Virus record (IMG/VR): IMGVR_UViG_3300018876_000008
Span: 62,001 to 126,000 of that record
Reading direction: 5' to 3' (one strand)
DNA from: a virus
Length of the DNA: 64,000 nt
Shown: in pieces, positions 5,566-62,172 of the stretch
Position numbering within the stretch: the stretch's first letter is position 1
Layout of the letters: every line of letters starts with the position of its first letter
Position numbers and translations under genes: made by a program
The notes under the pieces: generated by a model
What the model was told of the DNA's origin: nothing
What the model saw: the letters and a program-made list of their open reading frames with translations, nothing else
Database searches by the model: none

Positions 5566-5781
5566 ATGAGTGAACAAATTGAAATAACAAAAACAATGAT
5601 GAATAAATTGAATGGTAAACTTAGAGTTCCAATTCACATTAGTTATATAGCTAATTACATCTTAAAAGATTCTGTAGAAAAAACTAGAAAAGTTATGAAC
5701 AAACTTGTAGAAGATGGTATGGTAGTAGAAAGTAAGATTGCAAAAGATTATTACGTATTAAATAAAAGTAAAAATGAATAA
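5566..5781 (+). CDS. small winged-helix-like protein
   Basis: A 71-residue protein. Residues about 10-65 read as helix, helix, helix and a short beta wing (KVMNKLVEDGMVVESKIAKDYYVL), as in winged-helix DNA-binding domains. Probably a small transcription factor or DNA-binding accessory protein. Its end overlaps the DUF3310 gene by 8 bases, so the two are co-translated. Family assignment is by pattern only. Confidence 0.6.
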   Translation: MSEQIEITKTMMNKLNGKLRVPIHISYIANYILKDSVEKTRKVMNKLVEDGMVVESKIAKDYYVLNKSKNE

Positions 5782-11049: not shown

Positions 11050-11969
11050 ACAAATCAGTAAGAGTACTGAAGACGTTCTTTGAAAATATTAATAAGTGTC
11101 TAATTTGACCATCACAGTTTGTGAAAGAAATACAAAAAGATTAACCCCTTTTTTCTACAACGGTTAAAATAAGACATTTGACGGCGGTTTAGCGTCGTTA
11201 GATAACCCCAGTAATGGGACTAAAGGGATTGAAACGGGAATAGTACACCGTGAATGTCCGCAGTCGTGAGGCTGACAACTAAACAAAGTGGCTACAATCA
11301 AGACCCTAAGGGCAACTGCTAAAGGGACGAGATTACTCTGAATCCGTGGAATATCAGAGTTGAGATAGTGATATCAATAGGAAAAGCTACAGGTGACGGT
11401 TCGACACATCCTGTCAGATGTTGTAGGGCTGGGTACCAGTACGAAGGGATTCCGAGACGATAAGTTAACGTATTCCTGAAGTACCGTAAGTTGACAGACT
11501 TACAGAGAGGTGTGAAGCATTTTGTTTCCAAAAGAAACGAACCTTCTCCCGAAGCACATCTTTCATTATCCCACAGTTGCTATACTAACTAACAATTAGA
11601 AAGCAAAAGTTCTTCGGGCGTTGACAACGAAAGGTGTCTAACACTTCGAGTCATAGACTAACGAAGTCATTGGTAAGACCGCAAGTCTTCTGATGTCGAT
11701 TACCAAATACCTGGTGGGACGGCCATCCCTTCGTAAACTCGCAAGGTTTAACAGAGTAAAGTAGTAGTTGAGTAGTTGTTAACGAGAAGAGTGGTTCACT
11801 CAAATAACCGACACTGACTTGATACTCTCGGCAACGATAGTGGATAAGTGAGCAACCGACATAGGGTAATCTCACTAAAGACAGGTCACATAAACGTGTA
11901 ATCTCAGCGTTCTATACTTTATATATATCTTCCTTAACCTCAGTTCTAACCAACTGAGGTTTTTTTTTA
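11050..11969 (+). ncRNA. Large (about 0.9 kb) structured non-coding RNA, GOLLD/ROOL-sized
   Basis: No credible protein frame on either strand, visibly richer in G+C than flanking genes, with its own promoter and a strong terminator. Local helices are dense: CAGTC-GTGA-GGCTG, ACTCTGA with TCAGAGT, ACAGG with CCTGT, GTAAGT with ACTTAC, GTTTC with GAAAC, TTGGTAA with TTACCAA enclosing AAGAC-CGCAA-GTCTT, and AAACTC-GCAA-GGTTT. Several hairpins are capped by GNRA-type loops (GTGA, GCAA). Size, ornate folding and phage context resemble the giant phage RNAs GOLLD and ROOL, but I cannot match it to either family. Function unknown. Confidence 0.75.
11936..11969 (+). terminator. terminator of the large RNA
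   Basis: Perfect 10-bp stem AACCTCAGTT/AACTGAGGTT with a 6-base loop, running into nine T. Confidence 0.9.
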
Positions 11970-27115: not shown

Positions 27116-27241
27116 TTACCAATTTCTTCTTTTGTTTAATCTATCTTTCAGTGTCACATAAAGATATACACCTATAAAACCGAATAGACTTACATTCATT
27201 ATTATCTTAAGACCAACCATTATAGTATCAATTATCTCCAT
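27116..27241 (-). CDS. 41-residue membrane peptide
   Basis: MEIIDTIMVGLKIIMNV continues into one hydrophobic helix, then KDRLNKRRNW. It overlaps the oxygenase gene and precedes rmlD by one base, fitting the operon. Confidence 0.5.
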   Translation of the reverse strand: MEIIDTIMVGLKIIMNVSLFGFIGVYLYVTLKDRLNKRRNW

Positions 27242-27989
27242 CATCTTTTACTCTCTTACAATTTATACAAGTAAAAAACTTTTTAACTAACCAATCAAGA
27301 ATAAATCTTTCAAAAAATACATCTCTAAATAAACGCCAAGGGAGTATAGTTAAGATAGTCCACGGAGTTATTTTAAAACTTCTTAAAACGATAACAGTTT
27401 TCTCACCGGCAGTAACAGGCATACCACCATGATAGGCCAATATGTGATTAGAGTTATAATGTATGTAATGACCTGGCTTATAATCCTGAGGACGATGTTC
27501 TAAATTAGCAAGAGGGAAGTTAGTACCACCACCTTCAAAATTAGTATTCAAATATATAAGGGTCGTAGTATAACTCCCATCATAATGAGGTTCCATTTCG
27601 AGACGGTCACCCCTATACTTAATAACGAATTTATCTTCATTATATTTAACACCTAATTCTTTCTGTAACTTATTAATTCTATAATCCATAAGTTTCTTAC
27701 CCTCACAATCTAATATATCCTCATAAGGACATTCATAAACGGAAAGGGAGACATCACCAAAAGCATCAGTGATAGTAAACTTATCATGTTGTCTTTCTAA
27801 ATCCCTAAGGATAATCTGACATTCAACATTCGGAATAGCTTTACCTACTTTATAATTAAATTTAAACATACTAAGAAATAATAAGAAATAATATATAGAA
27901 AGGAAATAAAGGTAATAGATTAATTCCATCCCCCTCACCCTAAAGGGACGTTCACTATCGTTCACTTTCAGTGTCTGAAATAAATCCAT
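27228..27989 (-). CDS. 2OG-Fe(II) oxygenase (prolyl-4-hydroxylase-like)
   Basis: A protein of up to 253 residues. HYDGSYTTTLIYLN contains the H-x-D iron pair, followed by FEGGGTNFP, and HGGMPVTAGEKTVIVLR near the C-terminus contains the distal His and 2-oxoglutarate Arg. Such enzymes hydroxylate protein or sugar targets. The N-terminal about 40 residues are hydrophobic and lie in DNA resembling the adjacent non-coding region, so the true start may be the Met at 27869. Grouped with rmlD, suggesting glycan or cell-surface work. Confidence 0.75.
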   Translation of the reverse strand: MDLFQTLKVNDSERPFRVRGMELIYYLYFLSIYYFLLFLSMFKFNYKVGKAIPNVECQIILRDLERQHDKFTITDAFGDVSLSVYECPYEDILDCEGKKLMDYRINKLQKELGVKYNEDKFVIKYRGDRLEMEPHYDGSYTTTLIYLNTNFEGGGTNFPLANLEHRPQDYKPGHYIHYNSNHILAYHGGMPVTAGEKTVIVLRSFKITPWTILTILPWRLFRDVFFERFILDWLVKKFFTCINCKRVKDDGDN

Positions 27990-28660
27990 TCCCTATTTCC
28001 CCTTAAGAAGGTCATTAAAGACTTATCTCATAACTTAGTAGGGTATAACAAAACAATATATCTACCATACCCTAAAGGGTATTATTATGTATATGAAAAC
28101 ATTATACTATAAGAGAAAGAATACAATAGTATATAAACAATAACCCATAGGGTTAATTAACAATACTTCTCCCACTTTCTACCACTTTTGTAAGTCTAAA
28201 TAAGACCTTATTCGTTGAGGTCATTTTGTCATAGTTTTAAAAAAGTAGTCCTACAGATACGTTGAGGTATACTTATTTAAACCTATAAGACTACGTCTCC
28301 CCCGCTTATGGGATTAATACTATATTATTTACTGGAAATTAGACATAGTAATTTATTACCCTCTACAAACCCCTAAACAGGGATTTATTGTCGATTTCAT
28401 CGGTGAAATCAGGGATTTTCTTATTTTACACTATTACAGGATGGTGGTAGAAAGTGGGGAAAGGGACTGTGCTGTGTGTAACGTCCACATGACATTCTGA
28501 CAAATCCAAATAAATTAGTAAAAAGTTTTCAACAAAATATCCCCTGACACCCTGTCAGAGGTAATTTATAAAAAGTTATCAACAATTTTAATGTGTACCA
28601 AAACGGGACCATAATAAAAAGTTATTAACATATGGTGTTCACAACTCTCCAAAGGGTGAT
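27990..28660. other. long non-coding region, left part of origin-like zone
   Basis: No credible gene for about 670 bases. It holds short palindromes (CCCTAAAGGG, ACCCATAGGGT), a perfect 15-bp inverted repeat (28171/28444), GTAGTC/GACTAC, the hairpin GATTTCATCGGTGAAATC (28393), CTGACA-ccc-TGTCAG (28543), and three AAAAAGTT-type iterons near its right end. Confidence 0.6.
28171..28458. repeat. perfect 15-bp inverted repeat
   Basis: CCCACTTTCTACCAC at 28171-28185 and its exact reverse complement at 28444-28458, enclosing about 260 bases that contain smaller hairpins. Could close a structured RNA or a cruciform. Confidence 0.75.
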
Positions 28661-28668
28661 ATATTTAT
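28661..28668 (+). promoter_or_regulatory. ATATTTAT promoter motif before 28673
   Basis: GATATATTTATTAGTATG: four bases before the ATG. Confidence 0.5.
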
Positions 28669-28672
28669 TAGT

Positions 28673-28984
28673 ATGAAAGAAATCAGGGAGTTCATAGAAG
28701 AGAGTTTCACCCCAAGGGTAGATGAAGACATGAATGGTGTTAAGGTAATATTCTCCTCAACGGTAGGGGAAGGGACCATTTGGTTTGAACCTGCCAAGAG
28801 AGGGTGGAATAGAAAACCCTTATCCACAAATCAATATATCATTGTGGATGCTGACCTGACCCATGTGTTAACATTCTTAAATAGATACTACCAACTCAAC
28901 GAGGAGAACTACCACGACATAAGAAGAATGTTTATCCAGCTCGGAATGGATATGGTAGACAAACATACCAAGGGGGAAGATTAA
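28673..28984 (+). CDS. 103-residue hypothetical protein inside origin-like region
   Basis: Begins MKEIREFIEESFTPRV. GVKVIFSSTVGEGTIWFEP and ADLTHVLTFLNRYYQLN are the main strands and helix. Isolated between two long non-coding stretches. Codon use is slightly richer in C than neighbours. A replication-related role is possible only by position. Confidence 0.65.
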   Translation: MKEIREFIEESFTPRVDEDMNGVKVIFSSTVGEGTIWFEPAKRGWNRKPLSTNQYIIVDADLTHVLTFLNRYYQLNEENYHDIRRMFIQLGMDMVDKHTKGED

Positions 28985-29101
28985 ATTGTTAATAAATAAC
29001 TCCCCTAAAATTTGGTAGTCTCAAAAAAAAGTGGTACCTTTAGGGTGGTATGAGGGAGGGTAGTATACCAAACAAATCCCCCACACTCTAAAGCATCAAC
29101 A

Positions 29102-29132
29102 CAAAGATACAACAATCTTTTTTAATACACAA
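29102..29132 (-). promoter_or_regulatory. Bacteroidota-type promoter (minus), origin-like zone
   Basis: On the minus strand TTG (29130-29132), 20 bases, TATCTTTG (29102-29109), then GTTGATGC...GTGTGGGGG. No minus-strand gene follows for about 1.1 kb. It overlaps the opposing promoter at 29134. Confidence 0.6.
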
Positions 29133-29133
29133 C

Positions 29134-29164
29134 TTGTATGGTAACTTTTTTTTCCTTATCTTTG
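29134..29164 (+). promoter_or_regulatory. Bacteroidota-type promoter (plus), origin-like zone
   Basis: TTG at 29134, 20 bases, TATCTTTG at 29157-29164. The next plus-strand gene is about 570 bases away. Confidence 0.6.
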
Positions 29165-29249
29165 TTATGTAATATCTCACAAGGATAGGACCGAGTAGAC
29201 TCCAACCTGCCTTATACTTTCCTTCCCCCTAAACTCCAGGGCATCAGTA

Positions 29250-29281
29250 CAAAGATACGAATAATAATTGACACTGCCAAA
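29250..29281 (-). promoter_or_regulatory. second minus-strand promoter with duplicated leader
   Basis: On the minus strand TTTG (29278-29281), 20 bases, TATCTTTG (29250-29257), followed by TACTGATGCCCTGGAGTTTAG and a G5 run. The leader repeats that of the promoter at 29102. Confidence 0.6.
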
Positions 29282-29394
29282 TCCCCACACCATAAAGTTA
29301 TTAACATGACATAATGACTGTTGATAACTTTCCCCACATATATTTGGATATTAACTTGTTCTGACATGACTCCCATAGATGAGGTCTCAGCTAT

Positions 29395-29520
29395 TCCCCC
29401 CCTATATGGGGGTAGGGGTTAAAATACCTTAGGAACCCCCCCTTATGGGGTCCCCCCTCCCTGTATGGGTCCCGTATCCCCCCTCCCCCTGGGGGTGTTT
29501 TGGGGTCCAAAAGGGGGTTC
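29395..29520. repeat. cluster of C/G runs and GC hairpins
   Basis: More than a dozen runs of 3-7 C or G in an otherwise AT-rich genome, arranged as short palindromes: CCCCC-TATAT-GGGGG, CCCCTTATGGGG, CCCCCTGGGGG. Either strand could form G-quadruplex or hairpin DNA. Confidence 0.8.
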
Positions 29521-29715
29521 AATCCCGTAAATAAAATATGTACAGATTTCTATATAAAAATGTTTATAAAAATTTTTGGGAAAATTTGGAACTATTTACC
29601 CTTGTTCTATGTATGAGAGTAAATGTTACTTGTGTTTTCTAAAAGGGGACCCCTTATTGAAAAAGGGTCCCAAATGTTGAAACAAAATTTCTGGAAAATT
29701 TTTTGGTAAAATTGG

Positions 29716-29723
29716 ATATTTAT
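29716..29723 (+). promoter_or_regulatory. ATATTTAT promoter motif before 29741
   Basis: GATATTTATTATTAAACG, 17 bases before the ATG. Confidence 0.55.
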
Positions 29724-29740
29724 TATTAAACGAAATTATT

Positions 29741-30058
29741 ATGGGACAAAGAATAACAATAACAGAAGAACAAAAGGAACATCTACTTGGGATGCATGGT
29801 TTAAATGAACAACCATCTACAGGTTTTGAACGTAGTCTTGAACGTAGTCTTGAGAAAGATATTCCTAAAGGAGAGAAGATAGGTTTTTTGAGTGATGGTG
29901 AATTCAAAGACTTAATTGAAAAACTATCAAAGTGTGTAGATGAAGATGGGTTAAACAAAATGAAAAGATTAAGACCTGAACAGAAAAAGGAATTTGTTGA
30001 GAGAATGGAAATGGCTCTTGGTATTCACATTGATAGACCAGATAGGTCAAAGGGATAG
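29741..30058 (+). CDS. leader-peptide (ITEEQ...NEQ) protein
   Basis: A 105-residue protein. RITITEEQKEHLLGMHGLNEQ is the leader pattern with a terminal N-E-Q. A 12-base tandem duplication encodes ERSLERSL just after it. The remainder is charged and helical. Flanked by promoter motif and terminator as a single-gene unit. Confidence 0.7.
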   Translation: MGQRITITEEQKEHLLGMHGLNEQPSTGFERSLERSLEKDIPKGEKIGFLSDGEFKDLIEKLSKCVDEDGLNKMKRLRPEQKKEFVERMEMALGIHIDRPDRSKG

Positions 30059-54856: not shown

Positions 54857-55747
54857 TTATCTAAATAATGTCACATGTCCGTGAGTTTTTATCCCATAAC
54901 CAGGACGAGTAGCCTCTAATTTCCAAGTATAAACACCATCGGGACAATAATAATCTCCACTATATGGTAAAAACCAACTCAATTCGGGAAGAGGTGCCCC
55001 CGTCCAATTAGCTAAAGGATAGTCAGTTCTCCATACTAAATTGCCCCATCTATCGTAAATTTTCATATCCCACGTTAACCAACAATCAGCTTCAGTTACT
55101 ACCCTAAATGATTCGTTTTTACCATCTCCGTTTGGTGTAAATGCGTTAGGAATATATAAGTCATCATCAACACATGGAACAACTGGTCCGTCATTGGATG
55201 AATTACAATCAGGGTTTGTTAGTGAGAAGGTAACTATGTTATTTAAGGGTTCCACATCAGGATAGTCAAAGTTTCCTAAACCACTATCACTTTCGTATGG
55301 CCAAGTATTACTATCGTTTATTTGAGTTATGGAAAGAATCCAACATTGTTCATCAAAGAATCCATCATTTATTGCCTCCTCCCAACAAAAGCTGGCGTCT
55401 GAACCGGTAACAAATGCGTCTACAATGTTAAAAGTAACTTCATCACCTGTTTGTAACCAAGGACCTGGTGAATTAATATTGACTAAAGGAAAACTTACAG
55501 GGTAGATTAAAAGTGCCCAACCATTATCATAAAAACACGGATATGGGTAGGTATCTAATTGTGGTTCTGTAGTTATACCTAATAAAAATTCACCGATTGA
55601 ATCAGAAGGTGAACCACAATTTACTCCTGAATTCACGTATAAAGTAATATCCATGGTTTGAGGGTCAAATGACACAATTTCCATATCACATTGACCTTTC
55701 ACTATGAATGAAATAAATAATAAAATTAATGTAAGTGGGTTTTTCAT
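54857..55747 (-). CDS. secreted protein with T9SS type B C-terminal sorting domain
   Basis: A 296-residue protein with signal peptide (NPLTLILLFISFIVKGQC). C-terminal about 90 residues: DDLYIPNAFTPNGDGKN, then WDMKIYDRWGNLVW, then a DYYCPDGVYTWKLEAT block ending HGHVTLFR. This is the gliding-motility-associated (CHU_C) domain used for type B sorting by T9SS. N-terminal CDMEIVSFDPQTMDITLYVNS resembles the upstream gene's start, so the two share a domain. It would be exported and displayed by the host T9SS. Confidence 0.85.
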   Translation of the reverse strand: MKNPLTLILLFISFIVKGQCDMEIVSFDPQTMDITLYVNSGVNCGSPSDSIGEFLLGITTEPQLDTYPYPCFYDNGWALLIYPVSFPLVNINSPGPWLQTGDEVTFNIVDAFVTGSDASFCWEEAINDGFFDEQCWILSITQINDSNTWPYESDSGLGNFDYPDVEPLNNIVTFSLTNPDCNSSNDGPVVPCVDDDLYIPNAFTPNGDGKNESFRVVTEADCWLTWDMKIYDRWGNLVWRTDYPLANWTGAPLPELSWFLPYSGDYYCPDGVYTWKLEATRPGYGIKTHGHVTLFR

Positions 55748-57603
55748 CTGAATATAGTTATATGTCCCCTTTCTTCAATTATCAATGCACTATTTACTTT
55801 CTTACCTGTAACTACATAAACGTATAGCCCGTCAGAAACGTAATGATTTCCTCCATTCACACTTCCATCCCAATAAGGATAGTCGTCAAAATTATCACCA
55901 GTATTGTAATACACTTCATTTCCCCATCGGTTAAAAATTCTAAATTCAACGTTTTCCCAACAGTTTAAATCATAGATTAGTTTCCACACATCGTTAATTC
56001 CATCATTATTTGGTGTAAAAGTATTAGGAATATGGATAGTTGTCCAATCAGGACATATTAAACCTGGTGGGTCTTCATCACAAGGTAATCCCGTTTCACA
56101 GTCAATCCAAATTTCTTGTACAACATACTCGGTAACTGTGTCAGTTAGGTATATGTAATTATCAATAAAGACTGTATCTGTAAGATACTCTGTTATGTAA
56201 AGGGTGTCAGTTATGAATTCTGTTTCAGTTAAATAAATCGTATCTGTAACTACTTCTGTAATATACAGTGTGTCTATAATGTATTCTGTTTCTGTAATAT
56301 AGAGTGTATCTGTGACGTATTCTGTGATATATTCATAAACAGTATCTGTTACATACTCTGTTACATACTCAGTTATATATTCATAAACTGTATCCGTTAA
56401 GTAAATATAATTATCCACATACTCAATTAAAGTATCAGGTGGTGACTCAACATAAAGAGTGTCTATAATAGTATCAGTTATAAAGATAGAATCGATTTCA
56501 TAGATATAAGTTACCGTTTCAATTTCAATAGTATCTGGCTCACAAACCTCAGGACAGATTAAATCTTCTAATTCATCAGGATAGTAAACGGTAGTGTTAT
56601 TGTTACCCGTTACAATCTCATCATTAACATTATCAACAGTCATTGTAAAGAAACTACCTAATGCGTCATATTCAAAGAAAGGTGAGGTGAATTGTTGACC
56701 CTCACCTACAGGAATATCATACCCACCAAACATAGAATCATCAAAGCATTGATAGTAATCTTCATTCCATATCTCAATACAGTAATTTGTGATAGGTTCA
56801 TTACCGTAATTGTAAACGGTATAAGTTATTTGATATGAGGGAATATCACCAATACACCCTATTTCAAATTCTATATTATCAATAACAGCATCAGGGGCAT
56901 CGGGAGGACAATCAAAATCGGGAGAGGCTACTGCCGCACCGGGATTCTCATCTCTACATAGGTACCAAGAATTATTACAATTTTGGTCTTGATATGTATT
57001 TGGTGCGAAATCGGGATTAGTTGACGAACTTGCCCAACCTCCGTTTCCAACATACCAAGAAGAACCATAATTTACCTGCCACACAACAAATTCAATACAC
57101 TCATCTTCAGATAACCAATAATCTATTAAGTCATCACCACACTCGGCAAGTGGATATGGATATGTATCATAATCTCCAGGTGGGTTTAAAGGGATATTTA
57201 CAACATCTCCTGTTACTAAACCGTCTCCCATTATCTCTTCCTGAAAAGTAACAGACGCTGAAGGACTGTACCACCAACCCGGATGATTATTATCGGGATT
57301 CTGACCCAAGTAGTATCCATTAGCATCCCATCCTGGACTACATGGTGGTAATCCAAATGTTTCATTAAAATCTTCAATGACTTCATTATCGGGATTTATA
57401 GGTTCAGGAAGATGATAACCTATCTGTAATTGTGTAACTTTACCGTTTACACCACCAGGACCGTTTGATAAACATCCTAGTGAATTAATTACCTCAATGG
57501 TGACTTCGTATGTGTTAAGGTCAACAGCGGTAATTGCGACATCACATTGTCCTTGTATAAAAAAGGCATGTAGATATGCTATAAGAAATAATAGTCTTTT
57601 CAT
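55744..57603 (-). CDS. large T9SS type B protein with DTLYITE-type stalk repeats
   Basis: A 619-residue protein: signal peptide (1-19), N-terminal domain, a CARDB-like beta domain (about 245-340), a stalk (about 365-505) of recurring DTLYITE/DTVYEYITEYV units, then the CHU_C sorting domain (IHIPNTFTPNNDGINDVW, FRIFNRWGNEVYY). It overlaps the shorter paralogue by 4 bases. The stalk probably projects the N-terminal domains from the cell surface. Confidence 0.85.
   Translation of the reverse strand: MKRLLFLIAYLHAFFIQGQCDVAITAVDLNTYEVTIEVINSLGCLSNGPGGVNGKVTQLQIGYHLPEPINPDNEVIEDFNETFGLPPCSPGWDANGYYLGQNPDNNHPGWWYSPSASVTFQEEIMGDGLVTGDVVNIPLNPPGDYDTYPYPLAECGDDLIDYWLSEDECIEFVVWQVNYGSSWYVGNGGWASSSTNPDFAPNTYQDQNCNNSWYLCRDENPGAAVASPDFDCPPDAPDAVIDNIEFEIGCIGDIPSYQITYTVYNYGNEPITNYCIEIWNEDYYQCFDDSMFGGYDIPVGEGQQFTSPFFEYDALGSFFTMTVDNVNDEIVTGNNNTTVYYPDELEDLICPEVCEPDTIEIETVTYIYEIDSIFITDTIIDTLYVESPPDTLIEYVDNYIYLTDTVYEYITEYVTEYVTDTVYEYITEYVTDTLYITETEYIIDTLYITEVVTDTIYLTETEFITDTLYITEYLTDTVFIDNYIYLTDTVTEYVVQEIWIDCETGLPCDEDPPGLICPDWTTIHIPNTFTPNNDGINDVWKLIYDLNCWENVEFRIFNRWGNEVYYNTGDNFDDYPYWDGSVNGGNHYVSDGLYVYVVTGKKVNSALIIEERGHITIFR
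56120..56420 (-). repeat. degenerate tandem repeats encoding the stalk
   Basis: Imperfect direct repeats of the order of 24-48 bases (a form of gaTACacactgtatctgt on the plus strand), each encoding D-T-[LVI]-Y-[IEL]-[ITL]-E. About ten copies. Confidence 0.7.
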
Positions 57604-61558: not shown

Positions 61559-62172
61559 TAATTTATGATTCTACCATCTTGAGTATAAATTTCTACCGTT
61601 GCTGCTTTACCCATATTATCCATCCATTCATGAATTTCTAAGAGTTGGTCTTTGAAGAAAATTCTAGAAACAAAATCCCATTCACCGTCAGGTGTGTCAA
61701 TAGAACCTCCCATAACCGAGAAATCCTGTGCAACCGGAATTTGTTCTGATTCAAACATCATTTCGTAAATCCCTCCTTTTTGTTCATCAATAATGAGTAA
61801 AACATGTTCGACACCATCGTCACGATAATGAGGAGATGCTAGAAAAGATTGGTACGGGTACATCTCGTCTACATCTCCAACATTCTCATATTCATCACCT
61901 AAGTCTTTTTCCTCAAATTCGGCAACTACATTATCATTTTCATCTATAACTTTAAAAAAAAGTCTACCGTTATAAAATGGTGCGGACATTTGGAACATAT
62001 CGGGGTCCCACATATCATCTATAATATCATCCTCCATAAGGTGCCTAACTTCCCATAGTTCGTCACTATTATTATCTCTCATAAGGATATCCACCTTTTC
62101 TAATTGTTCATCATTTAAAGAATGTGCCACGGATTCCATAGACCATCCATAAACTTCCAACTTGTACTTCAT
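61558..62172 (-). CDS. acidic hypothetical protein
   Basis: A 204-residue, Asp/Glu/Met-rich protein. RHLMEDDIIDDMWDPDMFQ is a strongly acidic stretch. Not recognised. Three genes downstream of the phosphoesterase operon start. Confidence 0.6.
   Translation of the reverse strand: MKYKLEVYGWSMESVAHSLNDEQLEKVDILMRDNNSDELWEVRHLMEDDIIDDMWDPDMFQMSAPFYNGRLFFKVIDENDNVVAEFEEKDLGDEYENVGDVDEMYPYQSFLASPHYRDDGVEHVLLIIDEQKGGIYEMMFESEQIPVAQDFSVMGGSIDTPDGEWDFVSRIFFKDQLLEIHEWMDNMGKAATVEIYTQDGRIIN

Follow-up and report, generated by a model that had tools for sequence, protein, structure and literature searches.

A stretch of 64,000 nt from the virus record IMGVR_UViG_3300018876_000008 (record positions 62,001–126,000; hereafter the window, to which coordinates refer unless another sequence is named) contains a locus in which copies of the 13-mer AAAGTTATNAACA form two clusters around a small gene. 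We consider this locus to be, with a probability of about 0.5, an oriC-like bipartite origin in a Bacteroidota phage of the T4 type, at which the 13-mers would serve as DnaA boxes for host DnaA, the protein with which bacteria initiate replication of their chromosome. The evidence computed in support of this reading consists of the boxes, their identity with cellular DnaA boxes, the conservation of their bipartite arrangement, the linkage to a small protein, palindromes, and covarying hairpins. The whole 169-kb record is referred to below as G000, and its 199-kb relative as G004. The features of the locus are listed here from left to right, with a strand where one applies:

28166–28463, + strand: structured element of about 300 nt, candidate non-coding RNA, conserved in 22 phages
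28490–28502: palindrome P1, TGACATTCTGACA; TGACATTYTGWCA lies just 5' of box 1 in 22/22 phages
28503–28521: AT-rich stretch between P1 and box A1, candidate unwinding element
28522–28534, + strand: putative DnaA box A1, AAAGTTTTCAACA, one mismatch; relatives have AAAGTTATTAACA at the same place
28545–28557: palindrome P2, TGACACCCTGTCA, between boxes A1 and A2
28572–28584, + strand: putative DnaA box A2, AAAGTTATCAACA
28618–28630, + strand: putative DnaA box A3, AAAGTTATTAACA
28636–28648, − strand: weak inverted box, AGAGTTGTGAACA, two mismatches; GGTGTTCACAAC is invariant across the eight closest sequences
28673–28984, + strand: open reading frame (ORF) of 103 amino acids (aa), member of a small protein family always found next to cluster A
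29294–29306, + strand: putative DnaA box B1, AAAGTTATTAACA
29307–29319: palindrome-like P3, TGACATAATGACT, between the inverted boxes, its last base overlapping B2
29319–29331, − strand: putative DnaA box B2, AAAGTTATCAACA, inverted
29391–29520: G/C-rich hairpin block 3' of cluster B, kept in relatives

The original prediction had placed here an iteron-type origin with five repeats, one of them inverted, which flank a short gene in a mostly non-coding zone. This description proved accurate: the repeats start at 28522, 28572, 28618, and 29294 on the + strand and at 29319 on the − strand, four of them exact and one with a single mismatch, all within 811 bp. Exact copies of AAAGTTATNAACA number 5 in the window, as compared with 0.075 expected, and 4/5 of them are inside the 811 bp; the sole other exact match in G000 is at window position 5689. 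When one mismatch was allowed, the 811 bp contained 5 copies, whereas the maximum in 1000 simulated first-order Markov sequences of the same composition was 3. In G004 there are exactly five copies, every one at this locus. Cluster A consists of three direct boxes spaced by about 50 bp, and cluster B of an inverted pair. The short gene between them is the ORF at 28673–28984, and besides it nothing is evident between the ORF at 29741 and the leftward gene, whose start is at 27989 or, with greater likelihood, near 27872. The genes on both sides diverge, the left one being leftward and the right one rightward. The lowest-GC 40-bp step of the zone (17%) is at 28500, and the AT-rich stretch at box 1 is 68–85% AT in 22/22 phages; no clear DnaA-trio was seen in it. 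Taken together, the uniqueness of the cluster, the divergent flanking genes, the AT-rich stretch at box 1, and the bipartite layout found in about 20 contigs support the origin-like part of the original prediction.

The other part, an iteron-type origin with a phage initiator encoded elsewhere, did not hold, because the 13-mer is a DnaA box as judged from cellular loci at dnaA or dnaB far above chance, from the variants within the phage arrays, and from phages devoid of a DnaA domain. The DnaA-box consensus TTWTNCACA and the concept of a bipartite origin have been described previously (PMC7561715, PMC5043019), and the repeats fall into this class (TTWTNCACA) by their sequence and by cellular clusters at dnaA or oriC. 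A blind scan for direct 13-mer pairs in 84,980 cellular species returned 89 stretches, in which dnaA and dnaB were assigned by tblastn with DnaA and DnaB; 13 of these loci are at dnaA and 3 at dnaB. The cellular clusters contain up to 19 boxes, with TTATCAACA mixed with TTATCCACA, and the AAAG flank is found in cellular DnaA-box clusters as well. The variants in the phage arrays, TTATTCACA, TTATCCACA, TTATACACA, and TTTTCAACA, are DnaA-box variants. In 118 Bacteroidota genomes, pairs of TTATYAACA exceeded the reversed control, and pairs of TTWTCCACA exceeded it more strongly; among the fetched Bacteroidota loci at dnaA, three had TTATYAACA pairs and five had TTWTCCACA pairs. The TTATYAACA pairs adjoin dnaA in Bacteroidota G091, G103, and G135, and in other Bacteroidota the same boxes are directly upstream of dnaB, parA, mraZ/rsmH, and engB. 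No DnaA AAA+ domain (PF00308) was found in G000, and no DnaA DNA-binding domain (PF08299) in ten related phage records, all of which may be incomplete. The 13-mer is thus better read as a DnaA box with a conserved AAAG flank than as an iteron of a phage replication protein (Rep), and DnaA would be the protein that binds it.

Some observations made in the course of these comparisons concern individual sites and genomes. The DnaA-box-like TTATCCACA predicted originally at 28820 is present, but it lies within the ORF and reads CTATCTACA in relatives; being coding and not conserved, it was rejected as a part of the element. Pairs of TTATYAACA boxes occur near dnaB in L128 (upstream), L146, and L177, which come from Ochrovirga, a Bacteroidaceae metagenome-assembled genome, and Mucilaginibacter, as if DnaA could control the helicase gene there, which is possible. 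Direct AGTTATNAACA pairs were rejected as a phylum-wide element, since only 3/198 genomes had them, and the dnaA neighbourhoods of genomes G007–G010 contained no box clusters.

The arrangement of the boxes is conserved among phages. A protein search with the 103-aa ORF led to nine viral contigs. The eight closest relatives have three direct copies, in steps of 50 and 47 bp, upstream of the ORF, and all relatives that reach far enough have the inverted pair downstream, its two boxes separated by 12 bp. The N base varies (C, T, or G), as do the spacers and the length between the clusters, but the boxes are kept; the ninth relative, L014, has AAAGTTTTTCACA where box 1 stands. When viral contigs were scanned for the box patterns, direct pairs turned up in 49 stretches and inverted pairs in 32, and an iterated hidden Markov model built from the 103-aa ORF found homologues in 27/74 box-pattern loci, each adjoining the boxes. 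Two box clusters around one gene were found in the window and in about 20 phage contigs of 33–323 kb. Cluster A (2–3 boxes) is located 16–150 bp upstream of the gene of about 100 aa in nearly all of them (in L049 and L057 it overlaps the predicted gene start), and cluster B (2–3 boxes) 0.6–1.9 kb downstream of it. Boxes are also present in L288 and L290, which were found by protein alone, some of them with C at position 10 (AAAGTTATTCACA, AAAGTTATACACA). The order of the array is fixed: GTGGT..GTGGG words, GGGATTATCCCC (degenerate in the window clade), TGACATTYTGWCA, the AT-rich stretch, box 1, usually a second palindrome, more boxes, and the gene start. No DNA or protein relatives were found among cultured phages. 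A separate set of phages (L025, L064, L072, L075, L078–L081, L083, L085–L088) has inverted pairs only, AAAGTTATTAACA / TGTTAATAACTTT, 6–16 bp apart and in some cases twice; their boxes often adjoin MKTQTQ- or MNILEN-type proteins of unknown function.

The palindromes between the boxes are concentrated at the locus. The word TGWCANNNTGWCA occurs at 4–7 places per record of 170–320 kb, two to four of which are at this locus, as compared with almost none for the reversed control. Most phages have a TGACANNNTGTCA-like palindrome between the inverted boxes of cluster B, e.g., GACACTATGTC in L012. Elsewhere, TGACANNNTGTCA-like palindromes were seen at G000 157648–157691 (the same as L183 11648–11691), L312 7908–7951, and L316 4220, paired in the first two, in promoters beside genes of Clp ATPase, UVR-domain proteins, or DnaK. 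Could they be sites of the same regulator that acts at the origin-like locus?

The structured element 5' of the boxes is a candidate RNA family, which may act as RNA or as DNA and from either strand. In the window, it is closed by long-range pairing of two 20-nt arms (28166–28185 and 28444–28463), which are 90% complementary, and its fold has a z-score of −3.5. Conserved words enclosed by the arms include CGTTGA[AG]G, the hairpin AGAC-TAC-GTCT (28288–28298), and TTTACTGG..ATAGTAA, and the distance from the CTGGG word to P1 is 158–181 bp in 22/22 phages. In two hairpins, which end at CGTTGA and at C.CGC, respectively, the stems remain paired while their sequence changes (CCAC/GTGG, CCTC/GAGG, CCCC/GGGG; GTCC/GGAC, GACAC/GTGTC, ACC/GGT). 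When the 3' arms were re-dealt, the observed stem length was reached in 0/2000 trials for each hairpin, with the hairpins anchored by a loop pattern that was picked after inspection and that some members do not fit, including the window clade in the case of the first hairpin. RNAalifold on a MAFFT alignment of the 22 upstream regions gave no structure, because indels misalign the stems, and therefore the hairpins were tested singly. No Rfam match was found for 28166–28463. Another part of the window, 11505–11910 (+), is a full-length Rfam match to GOLLD RNA (301.6 bits).

The small protein, aligned for 20 members, appears from its sequence to be a new family linked to cluster A. It has no family or sequence relatives in Pfam, PHROG, or PDB, and hence no recognizable Rep gene is located beside the repeats. 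The AlphaFold models of two members both have four strands and two helices, with predicted local distance difference test scores of 82.6 and 71.7, and a Foldseek search with the first model gave no fold match.

We infer from these features a course of events that includes DnaA binding, looping, melting, initiation, and roles for the protein and the RNA. Host DnaA would bind clusters A and B and bridge them, looping out the small gene, and the AT-rich stretch at box A1 would melt. The phage helicase and primase would load at the melted stretch, a palindrome-binding protein of the host or the phage and the small phage protein would have accessory roles, and a transcript of the structured element may serve as primer or as regulatory RNA. 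More tentatively, we propose that a group of large T4-type Bacteroidota phages may share such an origin: bipartite and composite, it would have host DnaA as its driver and a small protein of its own as co-factor, along with a structured RNA of a new kind.

Several points weigh against a DnaA-dependent origin. T4 itself initiates without DnaA. Besides a T4-type terminase and a phage sigma factor, the record encodes T4-like replication functions of its own (a primase-like protein and SbcC/SbcD, with a DnaB-like helicase in relatives). The boxes, five or six, are fewer than in many oriCs, and most of them have A at position 6 of the 9-mer, where TTWTNCACA of E. coli has C. The exact-motif clusters of Bacteroidota are at promoters, with no clear skew minimum in 3/4 genomes tested, and were thus rejected as chromosomal oriC in G008–G010 (G007 was unclear). 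Finally, GC skew, suggested originally as a check at 28.5–29.5 kb, does not change at the locus in G000 or G004, where only a local reversal follows the gene strand. We rejected it as an origin proof; the result is weak evidence, because in phages of this type the skew goes with the coding strand.

It is unlikely, in our view, that the locus is a DnaA trap or switch, with which the phage would halt or redirect the replication of its host while starting its own at another site: the phage copies would titrate host DnaA or, like datA and DARS of E. coli, reset the nucleotide state of this protein. T4-like phages own a replisome, phage copy number would multiply the boxes, and titration by DnaA boxes has been demonstrated in E. 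coli (PMC12371093); moreover, E. coli datA is non-coding and has five DnaA boxes and an IHF site (PMC4585315), resembling the boxes around a palindrome. However, a simple trap needs no fixed bipartite layout, AT-rich stretch, linked gene, and structured element in an order conserved in 22 phages, and for titration one would expect more than five or six boxes.

Rather improbable, too, is transcription control by DnaA or a host regulator of the same site, in which the small gene would have cluster A as its operator and cluster B would be a promoter element, so that phage expression would be tied to the host cell cycle. As the boxes of Bacteroidota are at promoters (those of dnaB, parA, mraZ/rsmH, and engB) and off skew minima in three of the genomes tested, a regulatory role of DnaA is also possible. 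Cluster A ends only 16–150 bp from the gene start, TATATTTAT(TA) resembles the word GATATTTATNNNTA that precedes phage genes, and the TGACANNNTGTCA-like palindromes are also found in heat-shock-type promoters of these phages. Yet the conservation of cluster B, which lies 0.6–1.9 kb to the 3' side of the gene, is just as strict as that of cluster A, and an operator leaves the bipartite pairing unexplained. Very doubtful is the reading that an unknown phage protein, e.g., the 103-aa product, binds the locus as an iteron-type origin or operator and that the likeness to DnaA boxes is convergent: the 13-mer is longer than the 9-mer box, its AAAG flank is conserved, and the small gene is always present, but the same 13-mer is found at dnaA in cells, the array variants are DnaA-box variants, and cellular clusters have the AAAG flank.

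The phage locus can be compared with several known systems. P1 oriR, pSC101, and λ ori similarly have repeats and DnaA boxes that serve a non-chromosomal replicon, but at the phage locus the repeats themselves are the putative DnaA boxes, and there is no adjacent Rep gene. T4 oriF and oriG also belong to a T4-type phage, and transcription and RNA may matter in both cases; however, they use R-loops at middle promoters and have no DnaA boxes. As in the bipartite oriC of Bacillus subtilis, Helicobacter pylori, and Clostridioides difficile, two clusters of 9-mer DnaA boxes are split by one gene and accompanied by an AT-rich stretch (PMC7561715, PMC5043019). In contrast to them, the locus belongs to a T4-type phage, encloses a phage gene of about 100 aa instead of dnaA, has mostly TTATYAACA boxes, added palindromes, and a structured element, and shows no skew switch. 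With datA and DARS of E. coli it shares a small number of DnaA boxes in non-coding DNA together with a target site of a second DNA-binding protein (PMC4585315), but it belongs to a phage, consists of two clusters flanking a gene, and is not known to take part in DnaA-ATP hydrolysis or exchange.

The host is most likely a bacteroidote, because two proteins of the phage, encoded at window 54857–57603 (−), carry CHU_C type IX secretion domains. Does the phage use the sorting signal of the host type IX secretion system? The word GATATTTATNNNTA has 8 matches in the window, as compared with 0.34 expected, all on the + strand (7037, 22898, 29715, 30120, 32070, 32794, 33291, and 41979) and several just upstream of ORFs. 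It is likely a phage promoter, perhaps read by the phage sigma factor encoded at G000 27222–28031. The promoters predicted originally on both strands of the locus were not borne out by a sigma-70 scan (6 found and 6.9 expected), which is unsuited to Bacteroidota promoters. Terminator-like hairpins over 27900–29760 number 6, as compared with 2.0 expected, and 7/9 related contigs (L006, L007, L008, L011, L012, L013, and L014) stop 0–2.3 kb past the small gene, perhaps due to the G/C-rich hairpin block.

The site and manner of replication start are known for very few large environmental phages. The locus described here can be recognized in contigs of up to about 320 kb, where it raises the question of whether T4-type Bacteroidota phages recruit or neutralize host DnaA. 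The motif AAAGTTATNMACA would be an extended DnaA box for a phylum whose oriC lies far from dnaA (PMC4755523). The two-part cluster of boxes around the small gene is a conserved locus of large Bacteroidota phages. Its conservation suggests that T4-like viruses, which have been regarded as doing without host DnaA, may either borrow this protein or trap it; if our reading is true, lytic T4-like phages are not all independent of the host initiator.
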